Shown here: in pieces, positions 26,157 to 29,011 of the stretch
How the letters are laid out: each line of letters opens with the position of its first letter
Position numbering within the stretch: the first letter of the stretch is position 1
Origin: Bacillota bacterium
GTDB lineage: Bacteria; Bacillota; Clostridia; Christensenellales; CAG-138
Direction: 5' to 3'
NCBI GenBank assembly: GCA_022707005.1
Contig: JAKJBL010000002.1
Span: forward strand, 31,817-63,818
DNA: 32,002 nucleotides
The notes under the pieces: model-generated
Seen by the model: the letters and a program-made list of their open reading frames with translations, nothing else
The model's database searches: none
Told to the model about the DNA's origin: nothing
Program-made: the position numbers and the translations under genes

Positions 26157-27419
26157 TCAGCCTACGGGTTTTCCTTGACTGTAGCGAGCAGCAATGCAGT
26201 TACCCTGCGACAAATACATTAGGCGCTCAAGCCGCTGCTCCGGTGTCAGAAAAGTGTGCGGCAGAAGAGCTTCATCATCGAGTATAAGCGCATGCAGCAT
26301 GTCTCCTGCTTTAAAGCCGGGGCCTGCGTTAAAATACTTTTGACCCGCTGAAGTAATAAGATAAAACGCTTCGGCTACTGTCAAGAAATTTTCCTGCTTT
26401 CCCGTATCGAGCCAATGTCTTTTTGATGAACGTATAGCAGCTGTTGCTACATCCATCATAGACAGATGCGCACCCCCCGCAATATCCGAACCTAATGTTA
26501 CATTAAGCCCTTCGTTAAGCATACGCCTGATCGGGGCTATTCCGCTTGCAATATTAATATTTGAATCAGGGCAGTGTGCTACCCAGACTTCGTGGTCAAG
26601 CATTGCCCTGCGTTCGTCTTTATCCGAATAAACGCAGTGCGCCATAACTGTTTTATCGCTAAAGAGCCCAAAGCGCGCATATGTCTGCCAATAACTATTA
26701 CAGTCTGGGCAGAGCGCTTTAACCCATGCGATTTCATCAAGGTTTTCAGATAAGTGAGATTGCACAAGCAGACCCCGTTCACAGGCTATTTCGCCCAAGC
26801 GGAGCATCAGATCGTCTGTACATGAGGGCGTGAATCTGGGCGTAAGCATAGGGTGTACATTTGCATACCGCCCTTCGCATTCGTTAAGCCAAAGAATAGT
26901 TTCGCTTATTGATTGCTCAGTACTTTCCAGCAGATAGTTAGGGCTGTTTCTATCCATATTTACTTTGCCCACATAGCCGGTTACGCCTGCTGCCTCGAGT
27001 TCTTCCATAAGAATATGGGTACTTTTGCGATGAATTGAGGCATACATACAAACCCTTGTTGTGCCTGCCCTAATTAAGTTTGCTGCAAGTTTTTTGTAAA
27101 CCATACGCGCATATTCAGAATCAGCGAACTTGGCTTCTGTAGGGAAGGTATATGTATTTAGCCATTCGAGAAGCTGCAAATCCATGCCCATGCCGAGCAT
27201 TGCATATTGCGGACCATGAAGATGCATATCCGAAAAGGATGGAATAATAAGCTTGTCTCCATAATCTTGCACAGATGCGCCTTCATACTGCGCAGGCAAC
27301 GCGGAATATACGCCTTCAATCTTTCCGCCCTGGCATATAAGATAGCCGTTTTCACAACAGTGTAGTTCGCCAAAAACAGGCGCGTCAACAATATGACCTT
27401 TAAGCACTAAAACATCCAT
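26157..27419 (-). CDS. guaD: Guanine deaminase
   Basis: A 420-residue zinc amidohydrolase that converts guanine to xanthine and ammonia. Visible motifs: SFSDMHLHGPQYAMLGMGMD (first metal pair and the guanine-deaminase-specific HGPQYA), LLEWLNTYTFPTEAKFAD, MLTPRFTPSCTDDLM, QSHLSEN, MAHCVYSD and LGSDIAGG with the metal-binding Asp. The HGPQYA and TPRFTPSC blocks separate it from cytosine deaminases and chlorohydrolases. It is the second gene of a minus-strand operon behind dihydropyrimidinase (30-base gap; GGTGG before the ATG). Its 3' end lies 31 bases from the convergent truncated carrier ORF with no terminator between. Confidence 0.94.
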   Translation of the reverse strand: MDVLVLKGHIVDAPVFGELHCCENGYLICQGGKIEGVYSALPAQYEGASVQDYGDKLIIPSFSDMHLHGPQYAMLGMGMDLQLLEWLNTYTFPTEAKFADSEYARMVYKKLAANLIRAGTTRVCMYASIHRKSTHILMEELEAAGVTGYVGKVNMDRNSPNYLLESTEQSISETILWLNECEGRYANVHPMLTPRFTPSCTDDLMLRLGEIACERGLLVQSHLSENLDEIAWVKALCPDCNSYWQTYARFGLFSDKTVMAHCVYSDKDERRAMLDHEVWVAHCPDSNINIASGIAPIRRMLNEGLNVTLGSDIAGGAHLSMMDVATAAIRSSKRHWLDTGKQENFLTVAEAFYLITSAGQKYFNAGPGFKAGDMLHALILDDEALLPHTFLTPEQRLERLMYLSQGNCIAARYSQGKPVG

Positions 27420-27449: not shown

Positions 27450-28811
27450 CTATGCCATGCAAGGGCCCCTGTGAACAAACTTGCCCAAGCCCTTTTTTTG
27501 AAGAATACCGTTTTGCACTGCTATTTCGCCGCCTAAAATCACATCGCGTGCAAGGCCGGAAACAGCCATACCTTCAAAGGGTGTGTTATCGCATGCATGC
27601 GCAAGCCTTGTGTAAGTAAGCCTTTGCTCGTAATCCGGTTTCCAGATGACTATGTCTGCGTCAGCTCCTGCCTGGATTATTCCCTTTTGCGGATACATCC
27701 CGAAAATGCGTGCAGCGTTTTCGCTTAGGTGCGCCGCCATCTGCTCTAAAGTTACAATATTGCTTAAAACTCCGAATGTGAAGTATAGCATTGCACGCAC
27801 CTGCACGCCTGCACCGCCATTAGGTATCTTTGTAAAGTCACCTGCGCCCAAGGCCTTTTGAGCCATTGTAAACGAGCAGTGGTCGGTGCCTAAAGTATCA
27901 ATTTCGTTTTGTGCAAGGCCTTCCCATAGCAGCTTATTATCCAAAGGTTTTCTAAGCGGAGGACTCATGATGTACTTGGCAGCATCTGCCTCGCAGTACC
28001 TGCTCTCATCAAGCACAAGATATTGCGGGCAGGTTTCAAGATATACCTTTTGACCACGTTTACGTGCATGGCGCGCTTCTATAAGACCTTCCGCTGTTGA
28101 AAGGTGAACGACATAAGCGCTAGCACCTGCAAGTTCTGCTATGCGAAGATATCTCGAAATAGCTTCAGCTTCTACTATTGCAGGGCGTGAGCGCGGATGC
28201 CCCAATGGGTCGGTTTTGGAGAGCGCAAGTTGCTCTTTAGTTAATGCTTCAAGCAAACCCCAATTCTCGCAGTGCATGCCTAAAAGCGCCCCTATTTCAG
28301 CTGCCCGCTTCATGGCAAGGTATATTGTTCCGTCTTCAACCCGTAAAGCGGGATATACCATGTACATTTTATAAGAGGTAATGCCTTTTTCACGCATAAC
28401 CTCCATTTCTTTAGAAACAGAGCTGTTCCAATCAGTTATTGCCATGTGGAACCCGTAATTGCAAGAGCTGCCTTTTGCTTTTTCATGCCATTGATTAAGC
28501 GCCTCAAGCAAAGTCCCGCCTTTTGTTTGCGTAGCAAAATCAAGGACTGTCGTTGTGCCGCCAAGAAGTGCAGCTGCAGTTCCAGTATTAAAATCGTCAG
28601 CTGTTATTGTTGTGCCCAAATCCAAATCGAAATGCGTATGAGTATCAATAAAGCCCGGGAACACATAGCATCCCCGCGCATCTATGGTTTGTGCATCAGG
28701 CAAATCAATTGAAGGTTCAACAGCTGATATTTTATTCCCTTCAATAAGCACATCTGAATGCATTCTTCCGCTGGAATTAACTACTACGCCGTTTTTTATA
28801 CAGATACGCAT
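27450..28811 (-). CDS. hydA: Dihydropyrimidinase / hydantoinase
   Basis: A 453-residue cyclic-amidohydrolase that opens dihydrouracil, dihydrothymine or hydantoins. Visible: GFIDTHTHFDLDLG with the first metal-binding His pair, ITSYKMYMVYP with the Lys expected to be carboxylated and bridge two metals, GMHCENWGLL, VVHLSTAEGL, and LGTDHCSFTMAQK with the final Asp. All dinuclear-centre ligands are present. Closely related enzymes include allantoinase-like and phenylhydantoinase forms, so the exact substrate is open; the guanine deaminase partner suggests nucleobase salvage/catabolism. ATG 28811 follows AGGAGG. Its ~165-base leader holds a purine-riboswitch-like aptamer and a terminator. Confidence 0.9.
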   Translation of the reverse strand: MRICIKNGVVVNSSGRMHSDVLIEGNKISAVEPSIDLPDAQTIDARGCYVFPGFIDTHTHFDLDLGTTITADDFNTGTAAALLGGTTTVLDFATQTKGGTLLEALNQWHEKAKGSSCNYGFHMAITDWNSSVSKEMEVMREKGITSYKMYMVYPALRVEDGTIYLAMKRAAEIGALLGMHCENWGLLEALTKEQLALSKTDPLGHPRSRPAIVEAEAISRYLRIAELAGASAYVVHLSTAEGLIEARHARKRGQKVYLETCPQYLVLDESRYCEADAAKYIMSPPLRKPLDNKLLWEGLAQNEIDTLGTDHCSFTMAQKALGAGDFTKIPNGGAGVQVRAMLYFTFGVLSNIVTLEQMAAHLSENAARIFGMYPQKGIIQAGADADIVIWKPDYEQRLTYTRLAHACDNTPFEGMAVSGLARDVILGGEIAVQNGILQKKGLGKFVHRGPCMA

Positions 28812-28828
28812 TTAATGCCTCCTGAAGC

Positions 28829-28883
28829 AAAAAGAAAAGGATACCGCCTCGCCAGGCGCTTATGCGCTTACGCGAGTGGCTCC
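28829..28883 (-). terminator. Terminator / expression platform in the hydA leader
   Basis: On the minus strand the main stem CTCGC (28876-28872) pairs with GCGAG (28852-28848) and encloses a GCGC-ATAA-GCGC hairpin. It can be extended outward by CC/GG and GGA (28883-28881) with TCC (28841-28839), and TTTTCTTTTT (28838-28829) follows directly. The outer GGA belongs to the 3' strand of the aptamer P1 helix, so full terminator and closed aptamer exclude each other. Confidence 0.7.
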
Positions 28884-28947
28884 CATAGCAAAGCATTTGG
28901 CTGCTTTGTAGAAACGTTTGCGCCGCTTTAGCAAACTTATATGAGAG
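28880..28947 (-). promoter_or_regulatory. Candidate purine riboswitch aptamer (guanine type)
   Basis: Minus strand, 28947 to 28880. P1: CUCUCAU (28947-28941) with AUGGGAG (28886-28880), plus the A-U pair 28940/28887. J1/2 UAA (28939-28937). P2: GUUUGC/GCAAAC (28936-28931 and 28921-28916) with loop UAAAGCGGC. J2/3 GUUUCUAC (28915-28908), identical to the family core. P3: AAAGCA/UGCUUU (28907-28902 and 28895-28890) with loop GCCAAA. J3/1 GCUAUG. The GG of loop 2 can pair with the CC of loop 3, as in known purine riboswitches. The discriminator base equivalent to C74 is C (28888), predicting guanine rather than adenine. One deviation is G instead of A at the preceding position. It lies in the leader of hydA-guaD. 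Confidence 0.78.
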
Positions 28948-28982
28948 ATGACATGCTGAAAATATATTCTCTATCTGCATAA

Positions 28983-29011
28983 AGCATAGCACTTTACTAT
29001 ATCCATTTCAA
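28983..29011 (-). promoter_or_regulatory. Candidate promoter of the hydA-guaD operon
   Basis: Minus strand: TTGAAA (29011-29006), 17 bases, TATGCT (28988-28983). Transcription would begin near 28976, about 30 bases before the riboswitch aptamer. Confidence 0.5.

Follow-up and report, generated by a model that had tools for sequence, protein, structure and literature searches.

On the minus strand of the DNA analysed here (32,002 nucleotides from the Bacillota genome of a gut-type Clostridia relative, hereafter the window), the leader of a hydA-guaD operon resembles a guanine riboswitch, which raises the question of what a guanine aptamer would do in front of degradation genes and in which direction it would switch them. 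We consider it probable that control of the operon lies with a canonical guanine-I aptamer coupled to an ON expression platform. The aptamer, its overlap with a terminator and the contrast with xpt leaders are read from sequence comparison; the ligand would be guanine, switching would be co-transcriptional, and hydA would act as HyuA.

As the original prediction of a guanine-type purine riboswitch in this leader had anticipated, the covariance search that it proposed as a check returned a significant match. In a cmscan run of the whole window against 4227 Rfam families, the Purine family (RF00167) aligned over its full length (1-102) with E 1.1e-5, the sole above-threshold Rfam match in the window, and a search with that family alone across the whole genome gave E 1.4e-7. 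This is the only purine riboswitch copy found by the RF00167 search in the 1.69 Mb genome. The leader shares with guanine-I riboswitches (RF00167; xpt, guaA and permease leaders) the P1-P2-P3 three-way junction, the UUUCUAC core of J2/3, the specificity base C74 and the GG/CC contact between L2 and L3, and U22, U47 and U51 are canonical. J2/3, J3/1, the facing loop dinucleotides (GG 28924-28923, CC 28900-28899) and the discriminator C28888 were located exactly where they had been predicted (Table 1). Covariation in 15 homologs supports the helices: 15 of 19 P1-P3 pairs show changes on both sides, matched by none of 500 shuffles, and double changes occupy 54 cells, compared with 20 in shuffles. 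The whole leader folds only modestly more stably than shuffles (z -1.4), so the evidence lies in the covariance match and conservation rather than in folding energy. On these grounds the riboswitch is real, a guanine-I aptamer by sequence and a predicted guanine binder.

Table 1. Features of the hydA-guaD operon and its leader, in window coordinates.
Feature	Position	Strand	Basis
hydA, dihydropyrimidinase/hydantoinase family, probable HyuA	27450..28811	-	TIGR02033 513 bits, cut-off 393
guaD, guanine deaminase	26157..27419	-	TIGR02967 335.6 bits, below NCBIfam cut-off 375.4
Candidate sigma-70 promoter TTGAAA-17-TATGCT, TG before -10	28983..29011	-	consensus scan, 9/12 matches
Purine riboswitch aptamer	28866..28964	-	RF00167, 49.7 bits vs gathering 37
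P1 5' strand	28941..28947	-	sequence; structure A; pairs with 28886-28880
P2 and loop L2	28916..28936	-	stem 28936-28931 with 28921-28916; L2 GG 28924-28923
J2/3 GUUUCUAC, ligand-pocket strand	28908..28915	-	sequence; core nearly invariant in homolog alignment
P3 and hexaloop L3 GCCAAA	28890..28907	-	stem 28907-28902 with 28895-28890; CC 28900-28899
J3/1 and P1 top	28886..28889	-	G73 28889, C74 28888 (specificity base), U75 28887, A76 28886
P1 3' strand	28880..28886	-	terminator uses same nucleotides from 28884 on
Intrinsic terminator hairpin competing with P1	28838..28884	-	-23.0 kcal/mol; 5' arm base is third nucleotide of P1 3' strand
Terminator U-tract	28829..28838	-	sequence
Shine-Dalgarno AGGAGG	28818..28823	-	sequence

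The downstream genes had been assigned to the degradation of guanine and pyrimidines; the assignment to degradation holds, and the pyrimidine part is probably wrong. The nearest solved structures to HydA are D-hydantoinases, and the best solved relative of GuaD is the cytosine/guanine deaminase 2i9u (360 bits). HydA is single in the window's genome, with no further homolog at E<=1e-100, and the genome also encodes XdhA, a selenium-dependent xanthine dehydrogenase (Se-XDH), SsnA adjoining YgfK, YgeY, MocA and adenine deaminase (ade); YgeX was not found in this genome, which is 95% complete. Neighbours of hydA relatives include guanine deaminase, molybdenum-cofactor cytidylyltransferase, XdhA, selenium-dependent xanthine dehydrogenase, adenine deaminase (ade) and YgfK. 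In C. difficile, HyuA opens ureidomethyl-hydantoin (UMH) and 5-ureido-dihydrouracil (5UDU) in the reductive urate pathway (PMC12507026). A lone hydA alongside SsnA, YgfK, Se-XDH and YgeY fits HyuA better than pyrimidine breakdown, and hydA is therefore probably the HyuA of reductive urate degradation, which makes purine degradation alone a more likely target of the riboswitch than purine and pyrimidine degradation together. The operon reads as the conversion of guanine to xanthine by GuaD plus a later ring-opening step by HydA, a combination for which induction by guanine makes sense. The adenine deaminase gene of the window's genome (L196 3335-5000, G000:C204) is split over two frames, reflecting a frameshift, a pseudogene or a sequence error.

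RF00167 was present in 31 of 103 genomes across the taxonomic family of the window and in 49 of 396 across its order. Group 1 comprises 18 distinct catabolic leaders: 14 lie before hydA, one (L016) precedes guaD, two (L003 and L004) precede an 8-oxoguanine-deaminase-like gene (NF006055, 573.5 bits over a cut-off of 532 for L003; similarity of L004 to L003 judged by eye), and one (L007/L103) sits behind hydA, with the following gene cut by the contig end. This count includes L058, detected only by our own model, and L098, whose sequence appears identical to that of L191. Group 2 comprises 15 leaders before xpt, the genes being named from translations. A purine riboswitch went undetected in 65 of 80 hydA homolog loci, and 20 hydA loci without the aptamer, checked against Rfam, held no other riboswitch.

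We evaluated the ligand pocket against a list of contacts drawn from established guanine riboswitch structures and from PMC9295807. U22, U47, U51 and C74 are canonical in every group 1 leader. Position 73 is G28889 in the window and A73 in the Rfam consensus, although A73 is not required for guanine-I, and G73 occurs in 14 of the 18 group 1 leaders and in no xpt leader of the same family. The original prediction had taken G73 and the nonstandard loops as signs of a divergent member that might bind a ligand other than guanine, a view that the canonical contact residues and the wider distribution of G73 do not support. In a class-wide pattern search, G73 in other Clostridia preceded genes reading as an NCS2-type permease, xpt, purE, purL and adenine deaminase; since it stands before ordinary guanine-regulated genes, G73 alone is no marker of a new ligand, and we rejected it as the mark of a new ligand class. 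Guanine is our best guess from the pocket sequence, with hypoxanthine or xanthine also possible. Separately, L138 (about 1501-1562) carries a G73 guanine riboswitch before an apparent adenine deaminase in another Clostridia family.

The same ON switch might instead answer to another physiological purine (xanthine, hypoxanthine, urate, 2,8-dioxopurine or 8-oxoguanine), which we consider unlikely. Position 73 lies in the base layer adjacent to the ligand, the target enzymes act on or below xanthine, and L003 and L004 stand before an 8-oxoguanine-deaminase-like gene; one purine riboswitch of C. difficile reportedly responds to xanthine specifically (PMC11477304). However, the four contact residues are all canonical, G73 also occurs before typical guanine-repressed genes, and the xanthine-II and guanine-II classes are defined by J2-3 / J3-1 insertions, with U51G in xanthine-II (PMC9295807), whereas J2/3 GUUUCUAC and J3/1 GCUA of the window carry no insertion and fall outside those definitions. 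We likewise hold it doubtful that the leaders of hydA, guaD and the 8-oxoguanine-deaminase-like gene form a distinct ON subclass in which G73 adjusts how strongly or how selectively an intermediate of degradation, such as xanthine, is bound; if true, such a subclass would mean that the anaerobic reductive urate pathway is induced at the RNA level. The 8-oxoguanine riboswitch has an altered pocket, with 8-oxoguanine deaminase downstream; set against that class, the window has an unaltered pocket and hydA-guaD downstream, and two of its relatives precede an 8-oxoguanine-deaminase-like gene.

The direction of the guanine switch was read from the expression platform. In all 18 distinct group 1 leaders, the 5' arm of the terminator has its first nucleotide among the first three of the P1 3' strand, and a U-tract directly follows the terminator, whereas such overlap occurs in 0 of 14 xpt leaders (Fisher 2e-9, a value inflated by counting related leaders as independent). 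For positions 78-81, 73 of 76 cells (19 rows, one of them a duplicate) are paired in the terminator and 62 of the 76 follow the simple register of P1, and the two states of the catabolic leaders are near-isoenergetic, with B-A energies of +1.1 to -3.8 kcal/mol. In xpt leaders, the P1 5' strand has a downstream antiterminator partner of 8-10 bp (-11 to -16 kcal/mol, one -8.5) that is stronger than P1 itself, and the terminator is shifted downstream by some 43-56 nt relative to group 1; no comparable antiterminator for the P1 5' strand was found in the catabolic leaders, the window's best reaching -4.8 kcal/mol. A terminator set in the P1 3' strand without an antiterminator, as opposed to one governed by an antiterminator, indicates an ON design in group 1 and an OFF design in group 2. 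The ON logic of hydA-type leaders, previously an inference, is thus well supported by sequence. Within the window, the outer terminator pairs are drawn from the P1 3' strand as predicted (28884-28881 with 28841-28838, the U-tract starting from 28838), and the leader combines the two features of a transcriptional ON switch, namely a terminator that reuses this strand and the absence of an antiterminator. According to the nearest-neighbour model, a terminator shortened by one pair leaves room for the upper four pairs of P1 in several relatives (L006, L007, L018, L003, L004 and L027).

Transcription would start from the candidate promoter immediately upstream of the riboswitch, which is weak on its own (3 sites found by the scan in the region vs 0.9 expected). 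With the ligand absent, the nascent terminator hairpin would capture the P1 3' strand and halt transcription before hydA. By analogy with the pbuE adenine ON switch, in which the terminator invades P1 (PMC7707468), the upper terminator hairpin would form first and its 3' side would then displace the P1 5' strand; since the U-tract begins at the third P1 pair, displacement need go no further than that. With guanine bound (possibly hypoxanthine or xanthine), ligand-ordered base triples atop P1 would block this displacement and P1 would be held, so that the terminator base could not close beside the U-tract and the polymerase would read through. Guanine deaminase and a HyuA-type ring-opening enzyme would in this way be made when a purine base is available to degrade.

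The terminator-P1 overlap of the window is short and includes a G-U pair and a bulge at the terminator base, as might be expected of a decayed or constitutive leader whose aptamer no longer switches, but the invariant core residues, the covarying helices and an expression platform conserved across many genera make this very improbable. Structure A is predicted to be slightly more stable than B without ligand (+0.8), which together with the short overlap suggests that basal read-through of this leader may be high. That P1, stabilised by ligand, frees the terminator as in xpt leaders is scarcely credible even though guanine-I riboswitches commonly lower expression at plentiful guanine (PMC9295807, PMC11477304), because P1 and the terminator base contest the same nucleotides and we rejected an OFF design for the catabolic leaders for want of an antiterminator.

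An ON switch for purine catabolism built on a guanine-I aptamer would be new in its regulatory direction and gene association, as judged from sequence. Guanine-I riboswitches in the papers cited here are OFF switches governing synthesis, salvage or uptake, and typically carry A73, whereas the window leader has G73 and a hexaloop L3 and appears to turn on degradation genes. The pbuE riboswitch of B. subtilis is likewise ON through terminator invasion of P1 (PMC7707468), but it binds adenine, serves another target gene and is invaded through P1, J3/1 and P3, as opposed to the P1 3' strand only. Xanthine-I (NMT1) riboswitches are also associated with purine-degradation genes, including guanine-deaminase-like ones, but have an unrelated fold and are OFF, probably at the translational level (PMC7373994). 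The xanthine-II, guanine-II, 2'-dG-III and 8-oxoguanine variants of the guanine riboswitch share its scaffold, with ON-consistent architectures and, in several cases, purine-degradation genes (PMC9295807); in the first three the joining regions are altered or carry insertions, whereas the window pocket is canonical apart from G73. The surprise is limited, since altered-pocket ON switches for purine breakdown on the guanine scaffold were already known. We found no paper joining a guanine riboswitch with guaD, or a purine riboswitch with a dihydropyrimidinase, in a search that took in few subscription journals, so that this absence says little about novelty.

How urate-degradation genes are regulated across gut bacteria is poorly understood (PMC12507026). 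For guanine deaminase and a HyuA-type enzyme, the locus offers a direct connection from ligand to gene that can be put to the test, and it corrects the probable function of a gene whose annotation would point to a pyrimidine enzyme. It also suggests that a plain guanine aptamer has been wired oppositely within one bacterial family, OFF for salvage and ON for degradation.

Several further observations concern the relatives. L003 (188-286) and L004 (1501-1598), from a Clostridia family, combine a canonical pocket (A73) with an ON-type terminator before the 8-oxoguanine-deaminase-like gene. L058 (2807-2901) contains a long perfect palindrome in aptamer P2, an inverted repeat of the J2/3 region that is either natural or an assembly artefact. 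Among the 31 family genomes with RF00167, each carries one type alone, either the ON hydA/guaD-type riboswitch or the OFF riboswitch of xpt, and the xpt group is nearly restricted to one genus (g22) within the family.
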